Source of the DNA: Gracilaria domingensis
Lineage: Eukaryota; Rhodophyta; Florideophyceae; Gracilariales; Gracilariaceae
Length of the DNA: 64,000 nucleotides
Assembly: GCA_022539475.1 (NCBI GenBank)
Contig: VCMS01000125.1
Span: 85,970 to 149,969 of the forward strand
Direction of reading: 5' to 3'
The notes under the pieces are model-generated. The model was not told the DNA's origin. It saw only the letters and a program-made list of their open reading frames with translations, and ran no database searches. The position numbers and the translations under genes were made by a program. Shown piece by piece: positions 16,687 through 64,000 of the stretch (positions are counted from its first letter, which is position 1; every line of letters begins with the position of its first letter).

Positions 16687-16859
16687 ACGTAGGTGCAGGC
16701 CATGGTTTTGGACGTCAGAGCCTCGAAGCCCCTCTAGAAGATGACGTCTTAGGGTGTCTCAGAGGACGTGAGAACACATTTTTGAGATCAGTCTCGACCG
16801 TGCTCTACTTTAAAGGGAAGTTGCTTGGATGAAGTTAGGCGTAACTGTCTACGAGGGAG

Positions 16860-21685: not shown

Positions 21686-21689
21686 ATGT

Positions 21690-23338: not shown

Positions 23339-23700
23339 GCTTCGCTCGCGCGTATCGCACTAGTAGCCGCGGGGAGAGAGGGCGCAGCGCCGCTGGCGCG
23401 GCCGCACGGCGCGTATTTTCGATTTGCGCCGCAGCAGCGCGCGGCGCGCAGTGCCGCGGCGCGCAGTGCCGCGCCCCGTGCGGCGCCGCGCGCGCGTGCA
23501 CCTCTGGTGCGCGATGGAGAGCTCGGGCTCTCCGCCGCAGCCGCCGCCCCCGCCGCGTCCGCCCCGCCCGCCGCGTCCAGCGCTTCGTCCCGCGCCACTT
23601 GCCCGCGCCTGCGCGCCGCGGGCCGGCGGACAGTCTCTCCGTCCCATCGCCCGTCGCGCTGCTTCCCCCCCCCCCCCTCAGAGCACCAGCCCGCTCAGTC

Positions 23701-45433: not shown

Positions 45434-47314
45434 ATGGACATATCCGAGATTCCGGTTCTTCGTCACAACGAGACACACGCGCAAGCGCACTCAGCTTCTC
45501 TGCACTCAGACGATTCAGTACTTGAAGTTTCTTCTGCGATCGACGATTCGATGAACCCTCACCAGGGCGACGAGCAGCCTTCCCAAGCCGGGGTTCCGAA
45601 CGTTTCGGGTCCCGCAACTCCTGCGACAGGGTATCTCGGCGGTTTCGCATCCGCTCCTTTGCCTCAGAGTCAACATCACACCTCTACACCGAATCCGGTC
45701 GACGTCGCGGCGTGGAATTCCGCTCAGGCGGTGCCCTTACTGACGACTTCAGCTGGCTGGATAGCGCGTGAATCGCTCTTTGTTCAAGATCCGACTACCG
45801 GAGCAAGCTGGGCCTATTCTAGAGCGCCCTGGTTTCACCCGACAGCGGTTCGCAACAGTGCGTTGATGGATTCATACACCGAGAACGGTATGCTGCCTGG
45901 CGGCCTGCAGCGAGATATGGTGGATTCCTGGGATTGGAGACACCGCGTGGCGGTCGCACCTCACGTGTTGTCACGGAAACGGCGCGGCCGTGGATACGAA
46001 ACTCTAGATGAAGCGCGCGCGGCTATGGCGCGATTGGCATACTTTCGGAAGGACCGAGCCTCGTTCCCCGAGAGGATCCCCGAGTCATATGGGTTCGACC
46101 TTTCCCGGTTCCGAACTTACGGAGAGATCAAGTATGGCGCGAACCTCGCGGACTTCCATGCGGCGGAAAACTTCCCGGAGTCGATGCCGGCGGACATTCT
46201 CCTGTTCAACAGGCCTATCTTGCGAGCGGAGTTCCGATATCTACATCGCCCTTCGGGAGAGGGAAGCTTCTTCGACCGATTGCGAAACGAACGCAAGTGC
46301 CGATCCCGGTTCGGGTATCTGATTCCACACCAGAACATGGAGGTTGAACATTTGCGTCCGGACGCACTAGTGGGTCGATTCGCTCCACTCCCATCGTGAT
46401 GGGCTCAATATGAGGTACCACGCGGGTGTTTCCCGGAATTGCCTCCGTGCATCTCCTATGTGGGGTCACGCATGATTGCGAACCCGCACTCGGAGTATTG
46501 GATGCTCTTCATCGCCGAATGGGCCGCTCGCGTTGCCGCGTTTATGCTATGGGAAGCATACGACCAGAACCGTGTTTGGTATCTGCCTCCGAGGTTACGG
46601 AATTTGATTAGGTCACTGGACTTATACACTGCGCTCGGTTCGGACGACAACGTCAGCGAGGTATTCAGCCTTATCGATCTCATCGATTCCATTGATTGGA
46701 GTACCGTTCCGGCGGAAAACGTCCCCAGGGGCACTCGTTCGCACTACGACCGTTCGCCGGGGCGAAGACATCCGGGTGCCAGTGACTTCGTGTATTACGA
46801 TCCCTGGGAGGGAGCTACCGTCCCGAAGGAGCGGGCTCCCGTCCTACGCTGACTTCCTCGAGTGGTTCCGAGCGAGCACCCCATTGGGTTCATGTTTTCC
46901 GACAGCTATTACTCCGTAGCAGACGAGGACGATCCAATGGTGGATGACACTGTGAAAGACCCGGCAACGGGAGGCCCGTCGGCGGCTTCCGCAGGAATTC
47001 CGGTTGTCGGAGGGGCGGCTGCGCCAGTTGCTCCTATCGGTTGGAGCGTGGGCCCTTCGCAGGGGAATATTGACCCTCGCGTGGTAGCCATGCGCAACTA
47101 ACTCCTCGGACTTGGGGTGCCGGTTCCACCGGATATGTACGACCTCGGCCAGCTGTTGCCATTGGGCGCGCAGGCTTTGGCGAGTCAGTCTCCCCAAGCG
47201 GGGCCGTCCAACCCTGGAGGTGCCGGTCCTTCGACAGGATGGCAGGGAACCCAACGGTGGGTTCCCTCCATGATGGGCTGTGGTAGGCTCTGCGACCAAC
47301 GCACTCCGCAATAG
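45434..47314 (+). pseudogene. Antisense accessory ORF, copy 2 (diverged, several lesions)
   Basis: Homologous to 34362-36389 along the core (R-A-E-F-R-Y-L, G-Y-L-I-P-H-Q-N, Y-L-P-P-R-L-R-N, D-R-S-P-G-R-R). The frame runs 45434-46399, stops at TGA, and continues in the same frame to 46852. It then changes frame for a V-P-S-E-H-P-I-G-F block (46862-47101) that matches the E-R-V-I-P-P-G-H-P-T-G-F part of copy 1. A final Pro/Gly/Ser tail ends near 47314. The TGA position is a sense codon in copy 1. No gag or pol lies to the right, so its own element is truncated before ~47.6 kb. Confidence 0.6.
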
Positions 47315-48030
47315 CTAGCGGTACAACTTCTCCTTAGAACAAAATCGACTTCGATATCAGTTCCTTCATAACCGGATTACAGTTCAGTGCCTCTGGCGCA
47401 CCATCGTTCCAATACGATTCTCCATTATGCGTGTAGCTTCAAGACATGTTCACATGGACCGTTAGACGGTAGTTCGGTTCTTTCCGATAAATCGGCGTCC
47501 GTTAGACGGAAATCATCTTTCTTCTTTCATCCCTTCGATATTTCCTTCCGTAGGAACAACCCAAACTTCTTGGTAATACCATCAGTTATTCTCCCACAAC
47601 GTCTGTCTCTTGCAGATGCTAGTTTTTGGCGAGGGTCGTCCAGAAATTGGCAAGGGTCGTCCAGTAAAGTTTTTGAAAAAATATCGACATCAATTATTTC
47701 AAAATTTGGAGATAATTGCTTGTGTCGTCCAGAATCGCTGTGCAGTAAATACTGGTGGGTTTTCCACTCATGCTAGTTCTTTAGTCGAGGGCTACCTGAA
47801 CGATATTTCGCGAAGTCTAGGTTCAGTTTCCATTAAGGTGCACATTACACGATACCTTCTGCGGAATGATACCCTGCAACGCATGGAATACTAGTACTAG
47901 TACAGATGATGCGCATTATGAAATCATATCGTCTTATTCGTATCTATTCTTCTATCGATCGCTTTTGCTAACCACTACTTCACTATATTACATGTACCAT
48001 TTCCCCATGATGGAGCGGGTGTAGGCGCAA

Positions 48031-48179
48031 TCTGCGGCAGATGCCGCAGACTGCACCTCCACCATAGTGCTGTATCGGTAGAACAAATACGCATTCCGAG
48101 AGGATGAGGCGCTTCGCGCCTCATCCTCTCCGTTTCTCATGTAGGGAACCATGCCCAGATGCATGGTTCCCTACTTGAG
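48031..48179. repeat. Cluster of three hairpins
   Basis: 48031-48050: stem TCTGCGGC/GCCGCAGA with a 4-nt loop and a partly paired outer stem. 48098-48130: perfect 15-bp stem with a 3-nt TTC loop. 48141-48174: perfect 14-bp stem with a 6-nt loop, extendable to 48136-48179 with one mismatch. The hairpins are spaced by ~10-45 bp and have unrelated sequences. Their role is unknown. Confidence 0.8.
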
Positions 48180-48656
48180 GAACCTGCACCTGCAACTCGT
48201 GAGCTACGTACGCATCAAAAGTCATTTACCTGTATACGCAAGCAGAAAGTATCCATAAGTTAGTCAGTGCTCCGTTCGATACATTTGAAATGCGATGGAA
48301 CGTACCATCGATAGAGCAAACCAGAAACGTTGCGCTAGAAAAGTCGAGGTACCTAGTAAATCGCAAAAGTAACCCAAAGCTTATTTCCTGCCGTGTAAAT
48401 GTCGCAGAGCGCGAAGAGACGGGGTGAGGATTGGTAAGTTTAGAACAAAGATACGTAGAAGGATATGGAAGCACGTACGAAAAGACTGCACGGAATACAT
48501 CCGTGAGATACGGATGATGTCCGCTTTATGGAGGCGTCCATTAGGCGGACATGAAGCATACCTCATTCTCTTCCCCGCACTCTACTTTTTAGCCAGTGCG
48601 AGGGCGGAGAAAGGTACGACGGAGCGCCGCTCGTGCTCCGTGCCATCCACATCCTG

Positions 48657-48683
48657 GCGTTCTACTCCGGCGGAGTAGAACGC
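48657..48683. repeat. Near-perfect 27-bp palindrome
   Basis: A 13-bp stem, GCGTTCTACTCCG paired with its complement, around a single central G. Weaker inverted repeats (ATCCGT/ACGGAT near 48499-48515, ATGTCCGC/GCGGACAT near 48517-48553) lie just to the left. All are upstream of the transposase start. Confidence 0.75.
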
Positions 48684-48927
48684 GCGACGGTAACGGTAGG
48701 TCGTACGCCGTAGGCGCGGCGGCGGCGGCGGCGGCGGAGGGAAGAGATTTATTTTTCTGTGCAAGATTGGACAGGTGTACAGCGTACAACGTTGCGAAAC
48801 CACAGGTTTATAACCAGTGGTAGATAATACGAGAAGTACACCCTTGTGTTGAGGTCGACGTGTACCTACGTTCCATTTTGAACGAGAGCACGTGATTTAA
48901 ATTCAAAATATATTCTCCGTTCTCACC

Positions 48928-51900
48928 ATGACGTCGATCTTGACTGTCACTCGACCTCCTTCTCCCTTCTTACGACGTTCTCTTGCAGTCTTTGTCGTCG
49001 TTTCTCGTTCTTTTCTTCTTCCCATGGTCTCCTACAGTACACATAAGAAGCGTGGGTGCCCCTTTGTTACTCGCCGAGGAGTCTTCTCTCTTCAACAGCA
49101 TGTCAACCATTGCCCGTTTCGTCTGAAAGCAGCGCTGGAAGACGACAATAGGCCGCCCATTTGGAGAAGCAAGCGTCTCAAGCTTTCCGCGCCCGCGCCC
49201 GCATCTTCCGAAACGGTCACTGCCCCTTGTCACCTTCCAGAGCCTCCGGTGTCCGAGGACATCGTTGAACCCACTCCGTGCGCCCCTCCCATTCCGGACA
49301 CTTCGCATTGTGTTTCTTCTTCCGCGGGTCCTGCGTCATTAGAGCGAGAACACGGAAGCGGTTCCCGCCCAGTGCCTTCTGAGGAGGCCCTCGGTGATTT
49401 GCATATAGATTATCTCACGGTTTGTCTGGCTTCAGTAGCTTCCAACCTTGGTCATCGTGAGGCAGACGAGCTAATTGGGCTACTTCGGGACCCGCGATTC
49501 TTGCAAAAGCGATTCAACGAGACTATAACATGTTCCAAGCGCTGTACAGAACTGAAGAACGCCATTTTCGAACGATACGTCTCAAAGGACGGTTTCAATC
49601 GAAGAACTGTCTCGCCAGAAGGATGTAAGTTCAGCGCCACCCTCTACACGAGAGACCCCGTTCAGACACTTGTGAAACAGCTCCAGTTGGCTAACAACGA
49701 AAACACATTCTTCCACCCTATACCTCAGACCCACTCCACGAAAATATCTCACCCCATGTCCGGCTCTCTCGCAAGAGAGGCCACCTCAAAACTTAAGGAA
49801 ATGGTCATGGGCTCTTTGGATAGTAGAATAGTGTGGTACTCCCAAGAAATAAGTTACAGTGAATCTTTCGTAGGTCTTCTGCAGGTATACACCGATAAGT
49901 CTTCAACAACTCTAAAGCAAACATCGGTTACCGCCTATCCTCTTCACCTCATATTTCTCAACTTCTCCGACGAGCTACGCCGTAAGTGCATCCGTGATGA
50001 CCTCACAGTAGTGGCATACTTCCCTACGACACTGATCGAGGTTTCCGCATCTGAAGCAGACGCAATGCCATTCGTTTCTAGCAAGTCTCTACGCGAGTCC
50101 AGGATGCAAATCCTTCAAGAATCTCTTCGTCAAGTCCTGGAGCCCATTCTAAATCTCACGCAGAAAGGTTTTCAGTTCATCGGCGAAGACAAACTAAGGC
50201 GAGTGTGCCATCCTCTGCTTGCAAGTTATTGTACGGATATTTTTGAGGCTAAGGACATTCTGTCCATTCCTCATGGGACCAAAATGGAAAGCCCGTGTCA
50301 TAGATGCAAAGCCCCTCGCTCATCTTTATGCAGTTCTATTCCCACCTCATTCAACGGACGTTCTCAAAAGCACACGAAAAGCATCCGAAAGACATACACA
50401 GCTATCTTGCAACATGCACAAAAAGATGAGGCGGAAAGACGTCCACGTCGTGCGAGGGAGAGAAGATCTCAAGCGGATACTCTGATGAGTTCAAATTCCA
50501 TATCTCTCACTCCTTCGTTCCTCGAAACTTCCGTAAGCCTTGGAATGATCCCGGGATTGTCTCCATACAGTCTGTTGTCATTCGAACCATTACACAACTT
50601 GCATCTCGGCATCTCGAAGCTGATAAAAACGGCCACAATCGAGAGACTGCAGTCAGACACCCTGTGAACCACAATAGGAACATCTGAATCGCGTTCATTT
50701 CGAACGATACGCACCCAACTCCTCAACCATGCAAACGCAATTCTAGCTGCCATAGAACGCGATTCTCCTGCCAAAGGTTTACATATCGATTTCTGCACGC
50801 AGGAGAAAGGCAAATCTTTGAATGGTATCTTCACGAAAGACGGTCTCCATGGAATGCTGGAGGCCAAAAACTACAAAGCACTTGACATGGTCTTCCCCTT
50901 CATAGGAGCATTCTTTGACATATGCTGTGGAGAACAGGACGTTGCCCCAATCACAACCGTTTTCTCTCAGTACTCGGACTTGCTTTCGACCTTATTCAGA
51001 TACAATCGTGACCCGTATTGGACTGAAAGCTCTCTCCTGTGCCTCATTTCGGAGATTGAAGCCTTCAAGCGTTCCGCAACAAAGACTCTGGCGGATTTTC
51101 ATCCCTCCAGACTGGGAACTCTGAAGTTTCATCTTTTCGATCATCTCGTGGACGATATTCGCCGTCTGGGAAGTATCAAGTACTACGACGCAGGCATATA
51201 CGAACATGCACACCTGCTATTTAAGAGACACTACAAAAAGACGTCCAGAAGAACAGCAACGGCTGTGGAGGAGACTATTCGCTCCATTGAGCACGGACAT
51301 GTTAGAAAGCAATGGAATGGCAATACTCCTTACCAGCGTAATCCAGGTTTACCAGGAACTTCCACACAGCTTCCTCGATTTGCAATGAGAGGGCGTTCTT
51401 TCACTTTACGAGCTCTTTAACATTGTGTTTCAAGTATTTCCAGTTCAAAAACATGGACTGCTGTTAGAAAGATGTTCTCAAGTACGGACACAAGGTCGAT
51501 TCTTGACCAAATTGGTGAACAGGCTTTTCCTCCTTTCCTCAGTCTCGTGAAAGAAACACTGGATGAGCACTCTATTACATACTTTCCAGAAAAGACAAGG
51601 ATAACTCTGATGAATTCGGCCCTCGTGAAAGGCGGTTTCGTTCCGACTCTTGAACACTTCGATTCGTCTTCTTTCTAAGGCACTTAAGCTGGGACGACCC
51701 AAATACCCCATCACCCAACGAGTCTTCGCTTCTCCAGCATTTGGTCCCAGTAGAAAGCCAAATTTTTCCACTGTATTGGTAAGCGGAGAAGATTCAGAGA
51801 CTTGGGTTGCCCAGGTAGTCGCTCTGATTCGAATATCTCTCCTTGATTCTGCACTTACCGCACCAGAGGTGGCATTCGTCCGGTATTTCGAGGTTTTACC

Positions 51901-52207
51901 CCCCGCAACAAACATCGACCACATATTGAAATGCATATCTTTACGGTGGGCTACAAACGATGAAAAGAACCACACTCTTCCGTTCCCTTGTCATTCCAAA
52001 GCGGGGACTATCGTAGAGTTAACTCCTTGGTACGGGATGGTTCCGGTTTCTGCACTACAGGGAACTGTCCATGTTGTTCGATCAAACTACCCTGCTCCAC
52101 CTTTTTGTCCTCCACTTCAATGGTTTCAACACCGATTCTACATCAATCGATTCTATCATGATTCAGATGAAGGACCAACTGAGCACGTTGATCTTGTACA
52201 GCCTTAA
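48928..52207 (+). pseudogene. Plavaka/KDZ-type transposase with two in-frame stops and a frameshift
   Basis: From ATG 48928: a zinc-finger-like C-P-F...F-S-L-Q-Q-H-V-N-H-C, a disordered Pro-rich part, then Y-T-D-K-S-S...A-Y-P-L-H-L-I-F-L-N-F-S-D-E-L-R-R-K. That is the first-Asp region of Plavaka enzymes, which usually read D-x-T...P-x-x-L-x-x-x-N...R-x-K. Next come C-H-P-L-L-A-S-Y with C-H-R-C, and F-E-P-L-H-N-L-H-L-G. TGA at 50665 and TAA at 51418 are in frame, with sensible protein continuing after each (Y-E-H-A-H-L-L-F-K-R-H-Y). A frame change near 51660 leads to a C-terminal domain ending F-Y-I-N-R-F-Y-H-D. The TAA stop (52205-52207) overlaps the stop of the convergent gene by 3 bp. Confidence 0.7.
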
Positions 52208-53175
52208 ACATTAAGGGCTCCATCCTCTACATGTTCACCTTGTGGTGCCTTTTCTTGTGATCCTGTGTTACTTCCGAAATCGTTCATGTCCATTTCCTTG
52301 AACTCCATATCCCCTTCCTCGCATTCACCAACGAAACAATCGCTAATAGACCCCAATCTTCGGCTCACACTGTCAATAAAAAATTGTTCTTTCACAGTGA
52401 GGTAAAGTCTTCCGTTCGACGGCATTCGATATCCAAATGTAGCCTCTCTCATGTCATTACCAAGAACCTTAGTCCAATCTTCCGTTGTCGTTCCAAAATT
52501 ATGAAACTCGCTGGAATTGGTCCTCAAGACACGTTGCCTAACATCCCCCAGAACATTCTTTAAACACAGAGGTAGCAGTTCAGCAAACTTCTTTGTAAAC
52601 AGTTTCTGTCTCTGGCCACCCCTTGACACATCCGTACTTAGAAGGCTCACAACCGTCAACACCCAAGCGTCCAAACGTGCGAGCAACAGTATTGTGCCAT
52701 CTAAAAAGGTGCCCGTATCCTTGTCTTCCACATCATACCCAATAAACTCCTTCAGTACTTGTACCCCGACACAGTTTCGGAAGAACAAGTCTTGATCTTC
52801 GGTCGGCATATCCTCGACATACTCCGCATTGGAGTACTTTAGACGAACAAATGGGGCTTTTCTCCACCATGAAGTGTTCGGTACACCATTTTCGTCAAGA
52901 CGCAGTATGTTCCCCTGCGCTTCCTTCAACTGCATTGTGAGTTCGTCAGCATTCTCTTCTACCAGCTTTGTTCTTCTCCAAATCAGATCGTACCCCAGGA
53001 GCAGAAATAGTTTATCCCTCGTATTTCTCTTACGAACGCCCACGACGTCACTCATGGTCTGCCGCATTCTCTGCCTAAGGCACATATCCGCACAAAGTTC
53101 CAGTATACACCTGTCGGTAAGAGATGCTTTTCTAATACCTTCCCAGCTCAACTCCTTCAACTCGCTTTCAACCAT
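52204..53175 (-). CDS. Uncharacterised 323-aa protein (KDZ unit)
   Basis: From ATG 53175 (MVESELKELSW) to TAA 52204. It is largely helical with C-I-L-E-L-C-A-D-M-C-L-R-Q-R-M-R near the start, a central L-D-G-T-I-L-L-L-A-R-L-D-A-W region and an acidic C-terminus. No family recognised. Its open frame extends 12 bp upstream, overlapping the end of the next gene, so it could be the C-terminal half of that protein joined by a -1 shift at CTTTG (53181-53190). Its stop overlaps the convergent transposase stop (TTAA at 52204-52207). Confidence 0.5.
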   Translation of the reverse strand: MVESELKELSWEGIRKASLTDRCILELCADMCLRQRMRQTMSDVVGVRKRNTRDKLFLLLGYDLIWRRTKLVEENADELTMQLKEAQGNILRLDENGVPNTSWWRKAPFVRLKYSNAEYVEDMPTEDQDLFFRNCVGVQVLKEFIGYDVEDKDTGTFLDGTILLLARLDAWVLTVVSLLSTDVSRGGQRQKLFTKKFAELLPLCLKNVLGDVRQRVLRTNSSEFHNFGTTTEDWTKVLGNDMREATFGYRMPSNGRLYLTVKEQFFIDSVSRRLGSISDCFVGECEEGDMEFKEMDMNDFGSNTGSQEKAPQGEHVEDGALNV

Positions 53176-53180
53176 TTTCT

Positions 53181-54599
53181 TCAGCAAAGCATCTGGCCCC
53201 CCTCTACCGAAGGTGTGAACATGCCAAAACTGCCCAAGAGCTCCACGGGGTTTTTAGGAACCATGTATGAACCACCTTCCTCCGGCTCAATAAGCCCTTC
53301 CCCACTCTCAGTTGCGTCTTCCACCTTCTCGGCACGGTTACCCCAATTTCGGGTGAGCGACTCACCTTCGAGCCATAGCTCACTTGTTTCTCTCCTTGCC
53401 CACGTCAGCATGTTGTGATACACTGCTCGAGCAACCCCTCGAAACTCGTCGCACACCTCAATTTTATGCTTCTTTCGACCTGTCTGCCCAGGTTCACCAG
53501 CACGTGTACTCCTATCTCCCTCCTGTTTCAGTGCCCCTCTTAGCCCTTCAATGACTAGATCCTTCTCTTCAAGCCTCTTTTTCAAAGCCGTACTCTGCTC
53601 TTGGGCGACCTTCACTAGAATTCCCCGAACCATCAAGTCTTCTTGTAGCGTCTTAACCTTTTCTTTCAAGCAATTCAGTTCATTTAAAAGATCACGTCTG
53701 TTCATAGAGGTTGATTTCACACCAGTGTGGAAATCTTCCGGTATTTCCCTAGCCTCTTCGGCGAGAGGCCCCGGTAATGCCGCAGGATTCGGTGTTATTT
53801 CGTTATCGGAACTATCCTCATGTGCCATACCCTTAGACACGAGAGGCTGCAGGCGTTCTGTGTCCACCCTTGGCACGGCTCCGAGCTCCAACTCCCGTGT
53901 CTGTCCTCCTCCATGGCATGGTATATCAGATGAATTGGGCCTCGTACGAGCTGCAACGGCCCCCGTTGTGGAAAGAGGGGAAGGTCGAGGAGTAAGTCGT
54001 CTATCAGTTGTCTCTCGATTTCTTATTGTCTTTCTCCCTTGTCCGGACCCATTGCGAGGCATCATACTATTCATAGCGGCCCCAGTTCTAGAAGACAAGG
54101 ATGAACGTGACGATCTTAATATACTAGGGCTCTCACGACTTCTCGTCATTGTCCCTTGTTGTCCAGATCCACTGGGCGGCGTAAACCGCTCCCCAGTAGC
54201 TCCGGTCTTCGATATCGGCCCGGGACATGAAGGTTTTGGTGTCATACGAACCTCTTCAGTTCCAGTTGTCATGTCCTCCTGTCCTGACCCGCTGGGCCGA
54301 GTTACCTCATCTTCTTGAGGAGCAGAGACAGATGCACGATTTGCATTATCGGCAGTTGACGGCACGACATCGTTCCCTGATCCACGAATTCTTGACGCAA
54401 TCCCGGAAGACGCTCCGCTTAGAGATGGGCGAGAGAGTACTATAGGAGGACGCCCACTGACTCTTTCCTTCGTCGAGGACGACTTCCGTTTAGGAAGTGT
54501 GGTGCTTGTAGCCTGATTCGTATCATCCGATGCTCTTCTCTTCTTCTGTCCACTCTTGTTCCGCTGCGTACTATTTCGCTTTCTCGGCGTTATACCCAT
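53181..54599 (-). CDS. Uncharacterised 472-aa disordered/coiled-coil protein (KDZ unit)
   Basis: From ATG 54599 (MGITPRKRNSTQ). A basic N-terminus is followed by ~250 residues rich in Ser, Arg, Pro, Thr and Gly containing several S-G-S-G-Q repeats spaced ~45 residues apart. A leucine/lysine/glutamate coiled coil follows (about 290-360), then a C-terminal W-A-R-R-E-T-S-E-L-W segment. The repeat spacing suggests internal duplication. No enzyme motif. It may be a structural or DNA-bridging partner of the element; function unknown. The gene ends ...GGQMLC-stop, overlapping the frame of the 323-aa gene. Confidence 0.5.
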   Translation of the reverse strand: MGITPRKRNSTQRNKSGQKKRRASDDTNQATSTTLPKRKSSSTKERVSGRPPIVLSRPSLSGASSGIASRIRGSGNDVVPSTADNANRASVSAPQEDEVTRPSGSGQEDMTTGTEEVRMTPKPSCPGPISKTGATGERFTPPSGSGQQGTMTRSRESPSILRSSRSSLSSRTGAAMNSMMPRNGSGQGRKTIRNRETTDRRLTPRPSPLSTTGAVAARTRPNSSDIPCHGGGQTRELELGAVPRVDTERLQPLVSKGMAHEDSSDNEITPNPAALPGPLAEEAREIPEDFHTGVKSTSMNRRDLLNELNCLKEKVKTLQEDLMVRGILVKVAQEQSTALKKRLEEKDLVIEGLRGALKQEGDRSTRAGEPGQTGRKKHKIEVCDEFRGVARAVYHNMLTWARRETSELWLEGESLTRNWGNRAEKVEDATESGEGLIEPEEGGSYMVPKNPVELLGSFGMFTPSVEGGQMLC

Positions 54600-54845
54600 G
54601 TTGTGGAGATAAACGGTGTAATGAAACGAAATTGTTGGGGGGGGTAAGGGGTGAGGGGGGGGTGCATGGTTCAGATATTCCGGGAGACTCCGCAGTTCCT
54701 GCTTTTTAGGAATTTGAGGTGCCCAATGGGTCGCAAATATCGCCGTTACAGATGAAGATCTCCAGTGTACATGTACAACAACGCGTATTGCAGGCAGCTG
54801 CAACATTCACAAGCATATTTACTTTCTATTCGGTACTGAACTCAT

Positions 54846-57800
54846 CTATTGCTCCAATGTCAGAGCCCAGTCCCAGGCGTACTGCTCTCCGTAGTTGAAA
54901 TACAACTCTTCGCCCCTCTCAATATCTCTTACTGCTCTACAACGAAGTAGAGCATAGTTAGAAAGGTCGGACTTAAACTGTATCACGGACTTCGCTTCCA
55001 CCACCTTCACATTGGCACTTCGAGTCCTGTTTGACCGGGGCTCCGATAAATCGGGATCCCCGGCATGATATCCGGCGTCGTTAATGTAGCCCCGATACAA
55101 AAAGGCGCAGGGACAATGTAGACTTCGCTCTCCTTTCTATCCTGAGCCTGTCCTGGTCTGTTCCTCAGGTGCAGAAACTCCGTACCAGTCACAGTGACCA
55201 TCATAGAAAACAACTTGTACCGCACTGGAGTTGCTCCGAGACAGCCACTTCCATACGTTAATTGTCTTTCCTTCCGGTTCGTCAGATCCGTGTATACCAA
55301 AGTTCCATAGAAATGACAGATAGTTTCCCCAGCCAATATCTTATGTTCCGTGAACACCCCCATACCAGCACGGGGATGTCGAATCTTAGAAGATGCTACA
55401 TGTAAGCGATAGCGATTGGCTTCAACAGTCAACAGCATATGCATATCCATTAGATTCAGAGCTCCTCGGTACTTCTCCTCCCAAAGATCTACAGTATGCT
55501 GTCCACACTTGTCGACAAAGTCCCAGTCCTTCCAGTATCTTCCTAAGAACTGAGTAATATGTGCAGGCATCACTTGGTACTGAGGGTAACCAAATGGAGC
55601 TTCCCATTCAAGCCGACCTCGGTCCCGATGTGGAACCCGTTCATAAGTCGTTGAAGCCGCATTCACCACCTCCTTTTCAACCAGGATGTCATTCTTCCCC
55701 CCGCGAATAACTTCGGCCATAAGAGTCGTTACATGGTGCTTCGCATGGCTGAAACATGGCCTATTCTTCTCGCACCCCAAGAACTTCCTATGCTTTGTCA
55801 GCGATAGGCACGCCATACCCGTAGAAAAAGTTCCCGCGAACATGTCCATGACAAGATCACCCGGTCTTGTGAAGCGACATATCAACTCCTTCATCAACTC
55901 CCTCGACTTCTGCTCCGGTCTTATGTACTGCCCACCTGGTACTGAACTACCTGGCTCATGTACCTTCCATGTCAACCACTCCCCCGCTCTCGGTTTTGGC
56001 ACCCGGTCAATTACATTCCTGTTAGCCGGGAAAGTAGAAGGAATGAAATTGTTCTCCTCAAATGGAGTAAGACTGGCTTTCTCCGATGGTCGCAATCCAC
56101 GCTTCACCCCATGAACGGCGTACTCCGTTACGGGCTGTATCCCAAACTTCCGTGGATTCCCTCCAACATTACTTCGATCCCGGATGAACACCAGTGGATT
56201 CGCATCCACTTTAAACGAAGGCGTGAGTTCTGGTTTACCTTCGCTTCCAGCTTCATCTTTAGTACTCACCGTTTCCGAAATTATCCTGTGCCAAACATGA
56301 AACTGTGCCATGGCACAGAATATAATGAAGTGCCCACCTGACCGAAGCGCGGAACTTATTAAGTCAGCCGTACGGATCATGTAATCCTCACTGAAGACAT
56401 CTTGAGCACTATTCCGTTTGTTCCTCTACCTTCGAGTGTTAAAGGGAGGGTCTGTTAGGACAAGCTGTGCCTCACCCCATAAAATCTCACTCTGATTCAT
56501 AAACGTTTCGTGTGTGTGCCTCAGGTCCTTCATGTCACAGTTGTACGCTACAAAGTGTGACTTTCTCATCCCCTTCCACACCTTGTCCATATTCATTCGA
56601 AGGAGACTGGATATCCCCTTCATGGGCGGCTCAATACCAGTCTTTTGGATGTTGTAACCGGCAACCCGAGATTCATGCTCCGCAAGATTCACCGGCTTCT
56701 CGACGTCGTCGCTATCGGAGCTCACGAGGTTCATATACTCTCGACGAAGTGGGGGTGGGGCAGACTTGGTCGAAGAAGGTTCGGCATTACCGGAAGTTTT
56801 AGGAGTTTTCGTCAGTTCAATATCAGGTTTCGCGTGAATGCCGACATGGAACCCTGCCGCATGACGCATATCCTGTATTTGTTTCCATAGCAACTCCGAA
56901 AACTTCTGAAATCGAGCAGGCAACTCACCGGAGTCAGAACCAGATACGGTATTCATCCGTATCTCCGAGAACTCTATCCAGTTCCTCATCTGATCAGCCC
57001 GTAAGCTATAGAGGCTATCGTGGGTGCATATGGTTTCGAGGTCTGTCAAAAATTCCTTAGCCAGTATTCGGAGGTTTGTATCGCATTCATCACTCAAGGT
57101 CTCCACCGATCCACTAGAACTGCTCTGTGGCACATCCTGTGTGTTGAATCGAGTACTCTGGCTCGGCGGGGCATAACCAGACTCCCATGTCTCTAGCGCT
57201 GTATACTTCAACGTCTGCATATTCATGTAAATGTATGGTTTCACCATGTGCGGAACGTTCGTGTATCCAAGATGAGCCGCAAAACAACTCCATGCCCATA
57301 CGGCCTCACTGAAAGCGAATCCCAGTCGATCACAGTTGTCTTTGGAGAACGACGTAAAAGTGGGTATGTACACAGATGGTGCATGGTTCACTTTTCGTTT
57401 CTTTTTCGGTTGTTTCTTCTTCATCATTCGGATATTGTCGTTCTCTCCCATTATGTGGCCGAGGTATGATAAGTATATAACGACCTCAAAAGGGTTCACA
57501 GCTGTTGGTGGGATGAACACTGTCGTCTTCAGAACCTGCTTTCTCCTGGTCATGAAATAACCAACCAGGCATCGCACCGGTAGGTATATACCCATATCCA
57601 TAGAGAGAAGGAAAAAATTGCGCAGTCTCTGGTCCTCATCCCCGTCCTTCTTGTCAAGAAGCTTCGTTACAAGATATCGTTGTTCCACAGGTTTGTTATT
57701 CACAACACTCTTTCGCAGCTGTTGCAGTGTCAAGTTCTGGAGGTTCTTGGAGTTAGTGGCCTCCTCAAACATCTTCCTTGCCTCCGAAATATCCTTATAG

Positions 57801-57982
57801 TTCTCGGCGCAGAACTCTATTAACCCTCTAAACCCCACGTCCCGTGACCGATCAGGGCCTCCATCGCTGTTTGCCAAAGCATCGCGAAGAACCAAGAAAA
57901 GTCTGACATATGCATGGAACGCCGGAGGCGGAGCACTCATGTCGATAGGATGCATCTCCTCTCCATCATCGGTGGAATCCAT
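54846..57982 (-). pseudogene. DNA (adenine) methyltransferase-like / SET domain fusion, broken by TAG and a frameshift
   Basis: ATG 57982 opens a ~500-aa N-terminal region without recognised domains, ending L-T-D-P-P-F-N-T, the DPPF catalytic motif (IV) of amino-methyltransferases. TAG at 56426-56428 follows; the same frame continues with S-G-G-H-F-I-I-F, then M-D-M-F-A-G-T-F-S-T-G-M-A (motif I, SAM binding). Motif IV before I is the permuted beta-class order, and DPPF suggests N6-adenine. A SET domain follows: G-M-G-V-F-T-E-H-K-I-L-A-G-E-T-I...F-Y-G-T. After a frame change at a T5 run (about 55095-55105) it continues Y-I-N-D-A...S-A-N-V-K-V...R-G-E-E-L-Y-F-N-Y-G-E-Q-Y. Predicted activities are DNA base methylation plus histone/protein lysine methylation in one polypeptide. 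Confidence 0.75.
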
Positions 57983-58890
57983 CGCTTCAGCGCAAACAAC
58001 GGATGCGAGCCTTTAAATGGCGACTTACGCTGGGCACCCCCGCTTTCGGCAGCTCCTCCCAGCGCACTGCCAGTCTCGTCCGTGTCCGTGTCCGCTCGGT
58101 GCGATAGCGCCGCGTGTCGGCCACGTCGCGACTCGGAGCTATTGCAAAGGTCGCGTATTGTGCTAAAAGTCGCGGATCAAGTGGGTGTGAAGCGCTAGTT
58201 TTCTCTAGTTTGATATATGTGCACGGCGTGTGCAGCGAAATCACTGCCGGAAGTGCCGGGAGGAGTGTTTTGGGAGGTCTCCGGAAGGCGCCAGAATGTG
58301 TCCAGAACGTGCCGCGGGCGGGGGGGGTCGGGCGTGTTAGGGTACATACCCTAACACGACCGGACCCCTCCGCCCGCGGGCACGTTTTGGGCGAGTTTTT
58401 GAAAAATGTGCGATTTTATGCCCGCGGGCGGGGGGGTCCGGTCGTGCCCCCCCGCCCGCGGGCACGTTCTGGCCACATTCCGGCGCCTTCCCGGGACCTC
58501 CCAACACACGCCGCCCCACAGTGATTTCGCTACACCCGGCCGCCGGTACGTTGGCGCCGCTGTCCACGTGTATTGGCGGGAGTAGGCTGTACATGGAAGT
58601 GAATGAGTGTACTCTTGACTACTATGCAAAGCATTTGAAGAGCATGATTAGGGAGCGCGACCATTGCTCGCGTGAGTCATCATTGCGCGAACTCCACGAC
58701 TCCAAAGCGTACAATCAGCGTGCGAGCGGCCACGGACAGGACACGGACGAGACTGGCAGTGCGCTGGGAGGAGCTGCCGAGAGCGGGGGTGCCCAGCGTA
58801 AGTCGCCATTTAAAGGCTCGCCTCCGTTCTTGTATCGTCCAGAGCGAGCGTATTGTTGATATACACCTTTCACTGCAATAGCTGTTCAAC
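57983..58890. promoter_or_regulatory. Divergent promoter built as a mirrored inverted repeat
   Basis: Outer arms: ~58000-58098 and ~58733-58828 are near-identical in inverted orientation, including TTTAAATGGCGACTTACG about 25-35 bp upstream of the methyltransferase ATG on one side and about 60-70 bp upstream of the ParB-like ATG on the other. Inner arms: ~58228-58330 and ~58430-58536 are also inverted copies (CAGCGAAATCACTG; GAAGGCGCC; CCCGCGGGC). Sequence between outer and inner arms is not shared. The centre carries several CCGCCCGCGGGCACGTT-type modules and a GTGTTAGGGT/ACCCTAACAC hairpin at 58334-58357. TTTAAA could be the core promoter for both genes. Confidence 0.8.
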
Positions 58891-61137
58891 ATGAAGCCAA
58901 CTCGTGTTCGAAAGCGTACGCAAAGCGGGACTCCTCGCACTCGGCGGAGCACTCGATCATTGCAAGGTAGAATGCGGGTTTCTCTGCAGATGGATGTTGA
59001 GAATAAAGGAAAGGTGATAGTCGGGGAAGCCTTGTTGCATGGAATTGGAAGTGTTCTACGCCGCGAGTTGCACGGGAAGCAATTGGACCCAGGTCTTGTG
59101 GTGGTTCATAATATTCTCATCAGTCGAAGCGGTCAGACGTTCTACCCTTACCGGGCGGAGGGCCTGGATCTTCCACAATATATCCAGGATCTCCGGACGG
59201 CCGCTCCTTGGGATGAGAAAATGATGGAACCGGTGGCAGCCAGCATTCCGGCGTCGAAGCGAGGAACGGTGAGCGCTATGAGTGAGGTGATGACGCTGAC
59301 AAGCCGCACGGAGCCAATTCGAAGTTCATCAACACCGAGAGGTAGCGCATCAGTAGCACCTCCGCGGGCAGGTCCGTCGTCTATTACGAAGCGGTCTATG
59401 GAGACGAGAGCATCCCCAGCTACGAAGCGGACAGGTCAAACAAAGTCTACCTCCGCTACGAAGCCCACTGCGTCGAAAAGGGCTTCTCCTGCGATGAATC
59501 AGACCGTCGACACAAGGGGAACTTCTGCGTCGAAACAGACGGTTCAGCAGGGGACGGCTGTGCAAGAGGAGGAAGATGAGATCATGAAAGGTCCCCTTCC
59601 AGACGCGGATGCGCAATCCGCGCAAGGAGCTGGTCCATCTGTACCCCAAACTGCACCAGAAACTGCGGAGCAGCAGGACGATGACGTTGTGCTTCTGTCC
59701 GCAAGAATGGCACGTTCAAGTGTTTCTGGCGAGCGGTCTGGAACACAAGGGACACCTACTCGGAGCAAGACGTACAGACGAATTCGTCAGAAGGTACCAA
59801 AGGTGAACCTCAATCAGTACCGGATGGTTGTTGTTACTGTTGACATCACTCTGGTGGACACTCCGCCCAATTTACTCCGTGGAGTAAGTAAACGCCACGT
59901 TGAAGCCCTTGTGAAGAGTATGGAGGAGCGGGGGATATTGCAGTCGATGGGTTCTTCAGTGGTGGCCTTACAAGATGCTACTACGGGAGAGAGGGATACT
60001 GACAAGGGACGCCTAACGAAGAAGTGCTTCATTGTAGATGGTTTGCATCGTCTGAAAGCTATACAATATTTGGCAGCGACTGGTGCACCGAAGTGGAAGC
60101 GATTAGCCAAGTTTTGGCGTTGCAATCTGCTGATACGAAGAGATGGGAGGCCCATTGGGATGAAGGAATTGTTATGTGTTGCTTCGTACCTCAATGAGTC
60201 GACGAGTACCATGCGAAGGATGATGTTTGCAGACAGGATACACTCTATAGTTAGTGTGGTCGCCATTCTAATTGAAGATGTTGAGGGGGTGACGCCGGCA
60301 GACGTGGATCCTGCAGAAGTGACAGAAGTGTTGAAGGAGAGCCAACTGATTGGGACCGTGCAAGAGCGTCAGTATCTGAGATATGCCAATGTCGCCCTGC
60401 AACTCATGTCTCGTGAGGGAATGCTGGCCCATTTCGAGGATATATGTGAGACTGTGAGTGACATAGGTCTCACACATCTGTCCCATACTCCGCTATATGT
60501 TTTGGATGCCGAGGAGTTTTCCTTCATTCTTGATTGTCTTCAGATGTTTCTATTGAAGGGCAAGTCGACGAAGACAAAGCAATGGAAAAGCTTTGATGAG
60601 GTTCGAGGTTTCTTTTATGATAGAGCACTGTCTCTGTTCCGCGCGGCTCGAGCAGTGAGGAATGAACTGAACGAGGAAGAGTCCATGGAAGTGTTCCTGA
60701 AACGCAAAGTCAGTCTTTCTGCTCCATCGAATGAAGATGACGTTGAAGACCCAGACAACAACGCAGCTGTGTATCAGTTCTTTTTGGCACAAGTTGTGAA
60801 CTTCAACACATTGTCGCGTGTTCGGAGCAGGACGAACTCAATTAGAACTGCCACGACTTCCGTTCAGAATCGATTGCGGACGATGCTCAAGGTAATTCCG
60901 CCCCTCGCACCATTGAAGCAGTCCGTGACGAAGAGGAGGACTCCCGCTGCTGCTGCTGCAACATCTGCCAGTGAAGAAGGGGAGCCGCGAAGAAGTGCAC
61001 GAGAACGGGCGCAGGTGAGTTATAGGGAAATTGAGCACGGCCGAAATCGAGGTGCCATAGAAGTTCTGGATAGCTCGAAGAAGAACAGCGGGCTCCGCCG
61101 AGGAAGAAACGGAGAAAGACTTTCACACAACAGATGA
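58891..61137 (+). CDS. ParB-like nuclease-domain protein (KDZ unit)
   Basis: 748 aa, uninterrupted. The N-terminal ~120 residues are globular, followed by ~170 low-complexity residues with repeated S-A-T-K-R/P-A-T-K-R units. A ParB/sulfiredoxin-like domain (about 310-450) has H-V-E-A-L-V-K-S-M-E-E-R-G-I, F-I-V-D-G-L-H-R-L-K-A-I-Q-Y-L (the G-x-H-R-x-x-A motif) and a helical A-S-Y-L-N-E-S-T-S-T-M-R-R-M segment. A long helical C-terminal part ends in a basic R-R-S-A-R-E-R-A tail. ParB-like domains bind CTP and DNA or act as nucleases; which applies here is unknown. The TGA overlaps the next ATG (ATGA at 61134-61137). Confidence 0.65.
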   Translation: MKPTRVRKRTQSGTPRTRRSTRSLQGRMRVSLQMDVENKGKVIVGEALLHGIGSVLRRELHGKQLDPGLVVVHNILISRSGQTFYPYRAEGLDLPQYIQDLRTAAPWDEKMMEPVAASIPASKRGTVSAMSEVMTLTSRTEPIRSSSTPRGSASVAPPRAGPSSITKRSMETRASPATKRTGQTKSTSATKPTASKRASPAMNQTVDTRGTSASKQTVQQGTAVQEEEDEIMKGPLPDADAQSAQGAGPSVPQTAPETAEQQDDDVVLLSARMARSSVSGERSGTQGTPTRSKTYRRIRQKVPKVNLNQYRMVVVTVDITLVDTPPNLLRGVSKRHVEALVKSMEERGILQSMGSSVVALQDATTGERDTDKGRLTKKCFIVDGLHRLKAIQYLAATGAPKWKRLAKFWRCNLLIRRDGRPIGMKELLCVASYLNESTSTMRRMMFADRIHSIVSVVAILIEDVEGVTPADVDPAEVTEVLKESQLIGTVQERQYLRYANVALQLMSREGMLAHFEDICETVSDIGLTHLSHTPLYVLDAEEFSFILDCLQMFLLKGKSTKTKQWKSFDEVRGFFYDRALSLFRAARAVRNELNEEESMEVFLKRKVSLSAPSNEDDVEDPDNNAAVYQFFLAQVVNFNTLSRVRSRTNSIRTATTSVQNRLRTMLKVIPPLAPLKQSVTKRRTPAAAAATSASEEGEPRRSARERAQVSYREIEHGRNRGAIEVLDSSKKNSGLRRGRNGERLSHNR

Positions 61138-62792
61138 GATCTACTCTGAACAGCATGACACCGGATGACCTGATGTCTCAACTAAATGAACATGTGCTGA
61201 GAGGAAGGTCGATGAAGGTTCAGTTCGTGGCATTGGGAGAGGGAGCGAATGCAGAGAACGCAGGAAGTTCTGCATTTGTGGATGACGAAGAGCTTCTTTC
61301 TGTGACGGTTCCACGGGTTGTCACCGTCGAGAAAGATGCTGCGCCAGACGATCAGCAAGAGACAGGTGGGGGGTCATTTGATGACGAGTTACTACAGCTC
61401 TTCCGGAATCTGAGGAGCACGGACTTGTTCGAGGAGACCCATATGATGGCCACCGAACCCATCATGGTGCGGGTATGTCAGGCTGAAACGCAGGAATGGC
61501 AAGGGAAGAACGTAATTGAGCACAGAGACCCTGGTCAGAGTCATTCACATACCGAAGGGACATAGGTCGGAGCTTCTAAGTGTCTCGAATCTCAGAGATG
61601 TACACCATCTTGTCTTTTGGCACGCTGCAAGGGCTGAACATCGCCTAAGGGCGGAGACATTTGTTATGCAGTATCTCGTACTCGCGACAGGTATGGATGA
61701 TGAAGAGGTGCTGTGGGTTGCTGCGAAGGAGCATGACGAATTTGGGCAAATGTTCTTCACCCAAATGCAAGCTGAGCTAAGGCAGAATGGATATTGCGTG
61801 CTTGATGGCTTTGCGACGGATAATGGTGTCCTAAATGGAGGAGTTGGAAAAAGTTCGAGAGTTCGGAGATGTGTCTGGGAAGTTGGTGGACTTCTTGAGA
61901 ATGAGTATGGAGCGATGCCGGATTACGGAAAGGGGAGGAACAGAAGTCGTTTGTTCAAATAATCAACGATGATGAAGGATGTAAGGACGGTAGCGATGGA
62001 CCATTTGAGGGGAGAGTGATGTCGACACGTTGGGGTACGGTGGAGAAGCCGGAGGATAATGAGGAGCTCAGGTGGGTTGTAAGGTCGCGTGCTTTACTTG
62101 ATGTTCGAATGGGTACAATTGCTGCGGCTTTGAGACTATGGGACAATGAGAAAGAAGCTGTGAAGATGTACACTCCGAAAACTGGTGGTCGATTTCTGGG
62201 GACGACGAGAAAGTGCAAGCGCCAGAGGCTGCACACCGACTTCAGTGGTCTGGCTACGAAGGAAACAATGAATACTGGTAACCCGGATACTTTGTAATGG
62301 CCTCTGGGAAAGAGGGCTTTCCTCTCTGGGTGAGCGCTGGAAGCCATCAACCGGTGGGGATGAACAACCAACAGTTGCGAGTGATGTCGGAGGTGTATCC
62401 AGCGAAGAAGATAATCATCCCACCGTACTCTGTATTCGTGGGCCGTGGTGATGTGACACATGCTGGAGCAAGTGGGAAGGACAAGGTGGATAGGCCGAGT
62501 CTATGGATGTGCTGGTTAGATACCACATGTACATGGTACCAGAGGGCTACGCACTACTGATTCTGTTCATCGGGTGCGGGATTTCCGACCCATGTTTGTC
62601 AATGGTGACGAGGAGGAGGAGGCGGAGGATGAACTGTTGTCCGATAAGGAGGGTGGGGCGGTTGACATGGACGAAGACCAAGTGGTCGTGGAGATTGGTG
62701 TGGAAGCGGACGCCGGTAGAACCGAAGTGCTCGAGAGTAGTAGTGATGACGATTTGCCAATAATGAGGCTGCGAGCGCCTCGAAGTGGATGA
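61134..62792 (+). pseudogene. 2OG-Fe(II) dioxygenase-like protein in several frames
   Basis: Coding signal passes through at least five frame segments: 61134-61565, 61516-61962, 61950-62297, 62290-62515 and 62515-62792. Joined in order it has an acidic N-terminal part, then a double-stranded beta-helix pattern: R-L-H-T-D-F (H-x-D iron ligands), Y/F-V-M-A-S-G-K, V-S-A-G-S-H, V-F-V-G-R-G-D-V-T-H-A-G-A (distal His) and V-R-Y-H-M-Y-M (candidate 2-oxoglutarate Arg). It closes with an acidic tail. Each shift is explained by a single-base indel, for example near 61940 (A3G4 run) and near 62287. I cannot place it among TET/JBP, AlkB or PhyH families by eye. Confidence 0.5.
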
Positions 62793-64000
62793 GAATGAGA
62801 TGATTAGTAAATTATGAGTGTCTTGCGAGTATTAAGAGTAGTATACTATTACAAGGCTATACATATGAACATAGAAAAGGTGCGGCAGGCTGGTAATTGA
62901 ACAAATGTCAAACGTCTTTGGTCCAGTTGCGTCTAATTGCAACATGCCAAATGCTCGGTATCGTTAACATCATTGGTGGCACCAGGCAATTCGCAATTGA
63001 ACATGCAGCGTCCTAACATTTCTGAACTGCACTTAAGGTTGCTTTTAAGAGAAGTATGAAACTGAGAAGCTATACAGTTCCTGTCTATGCGGTACTTGTG
63101 GCAGTATGGTGACTGTATCAGGAAAAATGGCAGAGGAACAGAGAGACTGGCGGAAATTTACCCAATACCTTGTCTAAGTTCATATATGCCAATGGTTACG
63201 GTATATTAAGTCGTTGATGGAACGTTAAGAAGAGAAGGAGAGCCAATTCAGAAGAAGTTGTGAAGTGTATGAGTTCATTGACGAACGTGTTGGTTTCGGA
63301 CTTGTCACAGGGGGTGATGTGGGCGACGTGGAGGGGAAATGGAAGGACTCGGAGACATTAAGTTTGGTGTTTCGGCAAATCATGGAGCTTTCCTCCGTTT
63401 CTCTGACGAGAGGGAATTAAGGCTGCATTCAATGATCACACCCTTGACACACTGTTGACGGACCACTGTTCTGGCAAGGGATTTGAATAGGAGGCATGGT
63501 ATTGTGAATGATGATGAAAGGGGTTTGTGGAGACCAGAAGTGATAGTGGCTTCCCAATTTCGTGTACAGCAAACTGTGGCAGTGGAGAGAAGAAGTGGAT
63601 GCTGTATTGGGGACCTGTTGAGGAAGATGGATGCGTTTGTATTATCTCCGGGATAAAAGTTGCGAAATTATGGACAAGCGATACACAAAAGGAAGCGGAG
63701 GAGAAATTTGGGATTAATTAACCGAGATTTATTGATAGGATGACGGTCGTGACGTTCGAAGTGTTTGAGGACGGCTTTGATGAGGTAGGCGGTACGGCGT
63801 TTCACGTCAAGAGATTGTAATCCGGGTGGAGTACACAACTGTTCGAAAGCGGTGGAGATGTACTTCGACATTATGTTGTGGCTCTGTTTGTACGGCTACG
63901 AGGAAAAAGCAGACGAATAAAAACACCATGAATCATAAAAGGGGTATTTGAGAATATACGAACTTTTTTATTACTGAGATCTCATATCATAGCTAAGTAT
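62793..64000. other. Right flank, no gene firmly recognised
   Basis: AT-rich with short frames only. A 67-codon minus-strand frame (63871-63668) has normal-looking composition (Q-L-C-T-P-P-G-L-Q-S-L-D-V-K-R-R) and could be an exon edge or part of the element; no family seen. The right end of the KDZ-like unit was not found. Confidence 0.35.

Follow-up and report, generated by a model that had tools for sequence, protein, structure and literature searches.

The window, a stretch of 64,000 nucleotides from Gracilaria domingensis, carries a Plavaka-type giant transposon of which the left-hand 16.4 kb are present (47600..64000, plus strand) and the remainder lies past the contig end. Its start at 47600 was placed by the terminus word and by the pile-up of match starts around query position 801, which corresponds to window position 47600; the element runs off the contig at 64000. 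In its long form it encodes a Plavaka transposase, a coiled-coil protein, a DNA methyltransferase-SET fusion and a fusion of a ParB-like domain with a 2OG-Fe(II) dioxygenase, and, farther on, a HAD hydrolase, a Rossmann-like protein and another ORF with coiled coils. Decay has affected the copy in the window. The first-pass annotation had proposed a 14-kb transposon-like unit with six proteins at 48928..62792. The transposon itself stood, but these bounds are ruled out by the terminus at 47600 and by the extent past the contig end, and the six proteins, although their genes are present, are fragments of only four genes, which this copy no longer keeps intact.

The transposase gene (48928..52207, plus strand) is interrupted in the window, where it is divided among ORFs 48928-50667, 50818-51420 and 51650-52207. 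The first ORF, in which CHRC is visible as a candidate for the C(2)C motif that Plavaka transposases have, along with H(3-4)H, between their second D and last E, matched the Pfam family PF18759 (E 5.8e-17, 62.4 bits compared with a cut-off of 26.3), and no Pfam family was found on the other two. The KDZ domain (PF18758) was absent from the Pfam matches of these ORFs at E≤0.5, which favours the Plavaka half of the initial "Plavaka/KDZ" assignment. Among the matches listed, frames of 1100 aa span the transposase in 42 of 75 copies, 4 of them flagged with a stop. The next gene, on the minus strand (52204..54806), codes for a coiled-coil/low-complexity protein without any Pfam family above the cut-off. 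It had been taken for two further unknown genes; both ORFs are present (53181-54806 and 52204-53187), but they form one open frame across the junction in the copies L020 and L050, and in the window copy a break in the frame divides what is a single gene.

A mobile family and its delimited copies

The left terminus (47600..47667, plus strand) includes 5'-CGTCTG and two 21-bp direct repeats with a GGGTCGTCCAG core (47626-47667). The left end opens with CGTCTGTCTCTTGCAGATGC, a 24-mer present at 563 places in the genome (up to 2 mismatches; control 0), and CGTCTG also opens the opposite terminus (L061:1868 and L061:599). Across the 77.9-Mb assembly the terminus words number 563 on the left and 578 on the right. 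Double assembly of some loci may inflate the copy counts: in the methylase and ParB listings several pairs of rows score equally, C160/C203 among them, and all rows were retained. The mean length of 44 delimited copies is 14.6 kb; if these are typical in length, the family would make up roughly one tenth of the assembly, a figure that is an estimate and not the result of masking. Several loci contain nested or rearranged pieces. No RNA families were found in the window.

A 9-kb block running from the transposase to the methylase is found again, at essentially its full length (to within 25 bp of 9073 bp), at 8 other places with 96-97% identity, 18 of 824 candidates having been scored; the scores of two of these places, C160 and C203, are nearly the same, and the pair may represent a single locus that was assembled twice. 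When pairs were counted by location, we found at least 8 for transposase and methylase, at least 7 for transposase and ParB and at least 28 for methylase and ParB, compared with 0, 1 and 0, respectively, in the opposite-orientation controls. These counts drew on the best matches listed (75 transposase, 95 methylase and 60 ParB places) and understate co-occurrence. Long copies measure about 20-24 kb, and both exact tag words are present in 5 delimited copies of 20.1-24.3 kb. The modification genes therefore do accompany the transposase in the same order elsewhere, in the 8 full-length blocks and in these 5 copies, and since the block recurs collinearly, neither a lack of co-occurrence nor an assembly join of unrelated loci, the two outcomes held in advance to count against the unit, was found. 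Judged from sequence, these copies are shown to belong to one mobile family with defined termini that carries a transposase.

Neither exact tag word was found in 32 of the 44 delimited copies, a count based on 0-mismatch tag places that undercounts the presence of the module; one of the 32, in C41, nonetheless contains a methylase place. The copies without exact tags include size classes of 9.1-11.2 kb and 12.5-15.3 kb, with 14 copies each. The modification genes are a modular part of the family, carried by the long form while many copies lack the exact tags, and they are therefore dispensable in cis. Both size classes, as well as the nested or rearranged pieces, would fit a decayed nest of several elements in which the modification genes are a different transposon inserted into the Plavaka element. 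We consider such a nest highly improbable, the least credible of the alternatives: the long form recurs with gene order and two termini unchanged, and casual inspection around the cassette brought no second terminus pair to notice.

Two fused enzymes

The methyltransferase-SET gene (54846..57982, minus strand; DPPF and DxFAGTFST motifs) is broken in the window copy, which matched the N6_N4 DNA methylase family PF01555 (Pfam, E 1.8e-11) and, in two halves each under the Pfam cut-off, the SET family PF00856 (E 0.14 and 4.8e-4). In the relative P0003 the SET match passes the cut-off (E 2.1e-6), and PDB sequence matches comprised methyltransferases and SET proteins alike, so the fusion recognized by the first-pass annotation is upheld. 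Sixteen homologues were found at E≤0.001, with Pfam SET listed for 10 of them. The methyltransferase motifs D441-P442-P443 and D643-x-F645-x-G647-T648 are invariant in all 17 proteins of alignment A1; with a DPPY-type motif IV ahead of motif I in one domain, they assign the enzyme, by its motif order, to the beta-class amino-DNA-methyltransferases. Foldseek matches included CcrM and M1.HpyAVI (E ~1e-10, TM scores by target length of 0.49-0.75), bdelloid N4CMT, and also phage and giant-virus methyltransferases and viral SET proteins; the PHROG match of the methyltransferase reached 1.7e-23. Canonical SET domains carry the motifs GxG, NH and ELxxDYG. Most rows of A1 retain the GxG and EELxxDYG-like ends, and ND is nearly invariant where the canonical domain has NH.

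Among the 95 matches listed, 15 have methylase-spanning frames of 1055 aa, and 6 of these are flagged with internal stops. Because other copies keep one continuous frame, the gaps in the window gene reflect decay, and an intron-containing methylase and SET gene is ruled out. For 12 open-frame copies, and without a neutral control, dN/dS was 0.14 over codon-alignment columns 451-600, 0.16 over 601-750, 0.35 over 751-900 and 0.27 over 901-1050.

On the plus strand, 58891..62792 encodes the ParB-like domain and the 2OG-Fe(II) dioxygenase, broken in the window copy past about residue 730. A ParB-like protein and a dioxygenase-like protein had been described here; their motifs were confirmed, but not their separateness, the two being fused in other copies. 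Frames of at least 1295 aa span both parts in 9 of 60 rows among the matches listed (3 of the 9 flagged); the longest with no stop flagged, in a copy outside the window, has 1308 aa. Two relatives, P0019 with 993 aa and P0020 with 1003 aa, also keep the fusion. The protein starting at 58891 has a VDGxHR ParB-type motif, whose DGxHR all 4 aligned sequences share and the genome protein P0018 lacks. PHROG matches to ParB-like partition proteins were weak (E 0.0077 for the L054 copy, 0.018 for P0019, none for P0020), and no Pfam match was obtained for the ParB part. The dioxygenase residues of HxD...H...R, namely H850, D852, H928 and R944, likewise do not vary among the 4 sequences aligned, of which two are copies from the G. 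domingensis genome; by motif alone, a 2OG-Fe(II) dioxygenase facial triad appears to be present. P0019, P0020 and L054 gave no TET/JBP or other Pfam match at E≤1, and up to E 10 the four members of alignment A3 matched only GmrSD_N (one member, E 0.2). The predicted structure of the fusion is poor (pLDDT 34), and its dN/dS is weak, at 0.62 pooled and 0.33-0.55 over columns 301-600.

Public proteins that keep one or the other fusion are 26-47% identical to those described here. The only named close relatives found were two proteins of G. domingensis, which cover 79% of the query region with identities of 94 and 89% and speak against a fungal host; a protein search with P0019 returned P0019 itself as the sole match, and no relative came from GTDB when it was scanned with the alignment of the ParB-dioxygenase. 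These comparisons bear on whether the genes are a captured prokaryote-like or virus-like module for replication and partition or for protection (ParB partition, phage-type DNA modification), acting extrachromosomally or against nucleases. The PHROG matches (1.7e-23 for the methyltransferase, 0.0077 and 0.018 for ParB) and the Foldseek matches to phage and giant-virus methyltransferases and viral SET proteins agree with such an origin. We nevertheless regard it as very unlikely, since IMG/VR held no confirmed relative of the ParB-dioxygenase or, whether searched with a single protein or an alignment, of the methyltransferase-SET protein, and the ORFs scanned against Pfam included no ParA match.

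The divergent promoter region and the right-hand genes

A 93-bp inverted repeat lies between the two fusion genes, with arm 1 (57995..58087) directly upstream of the methylase gene and arm 2 (58739..58831) directly upstream of the ParB gene; arm 1 is 97% complementary to 58739-58831. Of the 18 loci, counting the window, where both gene starts were located, 17 have both arms, and as they flank the intergenic region in these loci, we do not favour their being the termini of a small inserted element. Between them lie alternating GC-rich inverted repeat units (58249..58516) whose number varies among copies: at least one unit match occurs in 28 of 30 loci (the window and L032-L060), with a maximum of 11 overlapping matches, and the intergenic length ranges from 515 to 1458 bp in 18 loci. 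The dioxygenase and methyltransferase genes stand head-to-head in 18 of 30 loci, those with the methylase start within the stored flank, the search having required that orientation. The two fusion genes are shown, at the sequence level, to share a mirror-symmetric putative promoter region with GC-rich inverted repeats.

Such a single promoter for both genes could give self-limitation, as expected if the element turns methylation and heterochromatin on its own copies to limit damage, with SET adding a histone mark. SET can act as a silencing domain, and both the abundance of terminus words (563-578 in the 77.9-Mb assembly) and the many continuous frames among the copies listed are compatible with this copy control. 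We nonetheless think self-silencing improbable, given that an eraser-like dioxygenase sits within the same element and that module-less copies are common.

Farther right, a decayed HAD-hydrolase-like reading frame (62941..64000, plus strand) matches L061:6945-8032 at 92%. There, ORF L061:7005-7742 remained under the cut-off for PF08282 (E 0.082), and the adjoining L061:6002-6952 is a HAD-IIB hydrolase above it (E 1e-12). A Rossmann-like GxGxxG protein, recognized by eye from its motif with no family matched, is encoded at L061:4464-5453. That this protein adjoins a HAD-IIB hydrolase above the cut-off, and that the dioxygenase has no match to any DNA-modifying family, leave some room for the enzymes being cargo that serves metabolism or benefits the host. 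The methyltransferase alone would then deal with DNA, and the substrates of the dioxygenase, hydrolase and Rossmann-like protein would be small molecules or proteins. This cargo role seems to us rather unlikely, although less so than self-silencing: the dioxygenase forms one polypeptide with a ParB-like domain in the G. domingensis genome, in P0019 and in P0020, and its gene is head-to-head with that of the DNA methyltransferase in the loci counted above.

Proposed self-marking and comparison with known systems

The reading we prefer, to which we give about an even chance, is that the element encodes a self-marking/anti-silencing module whose specificity and function we infer. The ParB-like domain would bind element DNA, the inverted-repeat array being a candidate site; the methyltransferase would deposit N6-methyladenine or N4-methylcytosine on the element, SET would methylate histones in the vicinity or some other protein, and removal of a host silencing mark would fall to the dioxygenase. 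Element chromatin might in this way be kept permissive, or the action of the transposase timed, and the module could act in trans on shorter copies without module genes. The conserved catalytic motifs, the low methyltransferase dN/dS, the fusions kept in distant relatives, the methyltransferase fold, the termini and copy number, the collinear recurrence and the published transposon-borne ParB, TET and SET proteins described below suggest such self-marking; the module-less copies, the ParB part without a Pfam match, the weak ParB-dioxygenase dN/dS and ND in place of NH in SET weigh against it. More tentatively, the two proteins may form an epigenetic kit, one a base writer joined to a histone writer and the other a ParB-like DNA-binding domain joined to an eraser, both under one mirror-symmetric promoter, that would let the element both place a base modification of bacterial type on itself and strip host silencing marks. 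The first-pass annotation had likewise seen a writer, a histone-modifying domain and an oxidase that could mark or unmark the element's own DNA; the gene set holds, but its analogy with TET is functional at most, as no TET/JBP match was found.

Altogether, the enzymes look capable of marking DNA and chromatin chemically, probably for self-protection or self-regulation. Eukaryotes have few accepted 6mA or 4mC writers, and with hundreds of similar elements, many continuous frames and a little-changing methylase core, a transposon-installed bacterial-type base mark becomes directly testable; whether such a mark shields a transposon from silencing can also be tested in a seaweed. The host genus is cultivated.

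Fungal TET+ Plavaka elements (Kojima 2025, PMC12730594) likewise combine a Plavaka transposase with a 2OG dioxygenase passenger; there, however, the dioxygenase is a TET/JBP enzyme, whereas that of G. domingensis has no TET/JBP match, ParB is absent from the text of that paper, and its passages available to us do not feature a methyltransferase-SET protein. The same source gives fungal termini as TGT..ACA for PlavakaA and CATCA..TGATG for PlavakaB, the latter being those of the TET+ elements; the G. domingensis termini, both opening with CGTCTG, match neither, which argues against the fungal Plavaka subgroups but would not count against the transposase family. TET in fungal transposons and SET in HarbingerS and MuDR elements are noted there too (PMC12730594). 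The Phytophthora HarbingerS and MuDR elements resemble ours in encoding a SET histone methyltransferase but belong to other transposase superfamilies, and the passages do not describe SET as fused to a DNA methyltransferase. The named cargo of the Amoebidium "Plavaka giant repeats" (PMC11244446) is tyrosine recombinases, for which the G. domingensis ORFs scanned gave no Pfam match. The passages of PMC12502185 and PMC13062707 that we could draw on do not mention such elements.

Among algae, giant EnSpm elements, very large and with several accessory genes like the G. domingensis element, have been reported in the red alga Bostrychia moritziana (Petroll et al. 2025, as cited in PMC12477816). Proteins combining ParB and a DNA methyltransferase are reported in green, red and brown algal transposons, together with the proposal that they bind the transposon encoding them and modify it (PMC12477816). 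Sola1-1_Ec32 of Ectocarpus is likewise a large algal transposon (21.5 kb) whose accessory ParB and N4C/N6A methyltransferase gene is opposite the transposase strand; it differs in its Sola-1 transposase and in having ParB and methyltransferase in one 1104-aa protein, and the passages at hand mention neither SET nor a dioxygenase (PMC12477816). The initial claim that no such element had been described was too strong in view of these reports, although the exact set of a methyltransferase-SET protein and a ParB-dioxygenase in a Plavaka element was not encountered in the literature searched, the cargo of the red algal elements (Petroll et al. 2025) lying outside the comparison. Giant algal transposons carrying related accessory genes were already known; the pairing of two fused enzymes looks like a new form of them.

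Termini, complete form and copy number

We searched the 77.9-Mb assembly with window positions 46800-49600 and found that match starts pile up around query position 801 (best 40 of 774 candidates), which places the left terminus of the transposon at about 47600. The right edge of the window (C125:85970-149969) is a contig end, and the right-hand part was traced outward from L061, another copy, located on contig C257. Thirty-one of the 32 listed places (best 32 of 570 candidates) extended to query 4599-4601 of 4601, the remaining one, in C21, ending at query 2992. With a query spanning the end, all 40 places scored among 645 candidates ended at query 293-301, position 301 being the source sequence itself and position 293 corresponding to L061:1868. 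Read inward, both termini start with CGTCTG, and at L044:3862, in a further copy, the ParB gene is broken by a nested copy with the junction exactly at the left terminus of the latter. Adding window 47600-64000 and L061:6945-1868 together gives a complete form of about 21.5 kb. Words marking the left terminus, the right terminus, the methylase gene and the ParB gene were counted at 563, 578, 204 and 231 genome places, respectively (controls 0, 3, 0 and 0).

At L061:599-1868, two transposon copies stand tail to tail, their right parts about 99% identical, separated by a gag-like reading frame of about 1.27 kb. The window holds a Ty3-type retrotransposon (36902-41644 and 42675-44468), with a reverse transcriptase, integrase and chromodomain ORF and an adjoining ORF that overlies a 73% match (43200-43753) to this gag-like DNA. 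Elsewhere in the window, the GC content reaches 62-80% across 10 kb (3001-13000), compared with about 40-60% for most of the remaining window, in a segment containing a protein kinase ORF (9624-12299) and a 105-bp tandem repeat (10219-10526). Host-like genes for an M24 aminopeptidase, a PI-specific phospholipase C and the eIF3c N-terminus occupy positions 14452-25005, with a DDE_Tnp_4 transposase ORF (20330-21685) among them.

Gene order and the two fusion proteins

From the left end, the element carries the Plavaka transposase (+ strand), a coiled-coil protein (−), the methyltransferase-SET fusion (−), a divergent promoter and the ParB-dioxygenase fusion (+). Further right, in L061, come a HAD-IIB hydrolase, as one decayed and one open frame (PF08282, E 1e-12; TIGR01484, 42.3 bits for a cut-off of 41.8), a protein at L061:4464-5453 and a charged coiled-coil ORF. 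The L061:4464-5453 protein matched no family, and its PDB matches all had E≥0.66; by eye, its start is Rossmann-like (GxGxxG) and resembles that of ketopantoate reductases. In the window copy the frames of the transposase, coiled-coil, methylase-SET and ParB-dioxygenase genes are all broken; continuous frames of these genes are kept in some other copies.

The METHYLTRANSFERASE-SET protein has 16 homologues at 28-47% identity (E≤0.001), ten of them listed with both PF01555 and PF00856, and the methyltransferase catalytic motifs are invariant across the 17-sequence alignment. Its predicted structure (pLDDT 71) matched CcrM, M1.HpyAVI, M.BceJIV and the bdelloid rotifer N4C methyltransferase, and the 50 matches listed were all nucleic-acid methyltransferases; viral SET proteins appeared among the lower matches of a viral library search. 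By sequence profile, N6A enzymes came first for the methyltransferase, and EZH2, SETD8 and MLL-type proteins were found for SET. The predicted SET domain has ND at the position of the canonical NH motif. Among the 12 copies with open frames, the pooled dN/dS was 0.41, with 0.14 and 0.16 in the methyltransferase core, 0.35 and 0.27 in the SET-containing columns and 0.52-0.75 in the N-terminal 450 columns, values that would fit functional selection between transpositions.

Two G. domingensis proteins share 94% and 89% identity with the ParB protein of L054, another copy, which identifies the host as a red alga; their annotations read 'mediator of RNA polymerase II transcription subunit 15-like' and 'cell-wall-anchored protein SasA'. 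Two homologues, P0019 (993 aa) and P0020 (1003 aa), retain both the ParB and the dioxygenase parts at 26-32% identity. The putative ParB-like part is assigned from DGxHR together with weak PHROG matches of L054 and P0019, which fall at overlapping alignment positions; the dioxygenase part has the HxD...H...R set. Across 13 copies the pooled dN/dS was 0.62, with 1.01 and 0.84 in the first 300 columns, 0.55 and 0.33 in columns 301-600, and 0.53-0.86 in the remaining ones; frames differ where the stored stretches end, and this influences the last columns. The case for selection is therefore weaker here than for the methyltransferase-SET protein.

The two fusion genes run away from each other, head to head, and the same 93-bp sequence precedes each of them in mirror orientation (97% match). 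Of 30 loci, 18 had both gene starts within reach, and their intergenic lengths ranged from 515 to 1458 bp. GC-rich inverted units between the 93-bp arms numbered none in copies L050 and L051 and many in L034. Such a mirror promoter would lead to equal expression of both fusion proteins, and the intergenic repeats are a candidate binding array.

Long and short forms of the family

The 9073-bp block from transposase to methylase recurs at eight other places (C597, C323, C139, C120, C318, C65, C160 and C203) with 96-97% identity and at most 25 bp short of full length (best 18 of 824 candidates), and further partial matches are present. Tags were paired using the listed 0-mismatch places on contigs up to C59 (right 98/100, left 82/100, methylase 26/100, ParB 30/100). 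This gave 47 left-right pairs, 44 of which had no other listed terminus inside; as a control, an opposite-orientation right terminus lay within 60 kb downstream of 12 left termini. Five of these 44 delimited copies carried both the methylase and ParB tags (20.1, 22.6, 22.8, 22.8 and 24.3 kb), six the ParB tag only, one the methylase tag only and 32 neither. Since tags and termini with mismatches fall outside these lists, module presence is understated; a separate search placed a methylase match inside one of the 32 untagged copies (C41) and one ParB-only copy (C38). We conclude that the module, that is, the divergent gene pair, is part of the family's long form and that shorter, module-free forms are common. 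Fourteen untagged copies measured 9.1-11.2 kb and another 14 measured 12.5-15.3 kb; these discrete size classes without exact tags are possibly amplified deletion derivatives, or else a form older than the module.

Proposed working and comparison with known elements

Altogether, these data show a single mobile family, its gene content, the divergent arrangement and the conservation of the fusions and the methylase core. In the working we propose, the ParB-like part would guide methylation, histone marking and erasure of marks would follow from the other domains, and the module may act in trans and benefit transposition.

Giant KDZ, EnSpm and Sola-1 elements are described from a brown alga; one of them encodes a ParB-MTase protein, which may bind the transposon that carries it and modify it (PMC12477816, which also cites giant EnSpm elements with accessory genes in red algae); TET-bearing elements, Plavaka among them, occur in fungi (PMC12730594), and Plavaka giant repeats in Amoebidium (PMC11244446). 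Because these papers describe such elements, the kind of element is already known. As far as our searches go, with red algal EnSpm cargo judged from the citing paper, what appears new relative to that literature is the presence of MTase-SET and ParB-dioxygenase fusions, head to head, in a Plavaka element.
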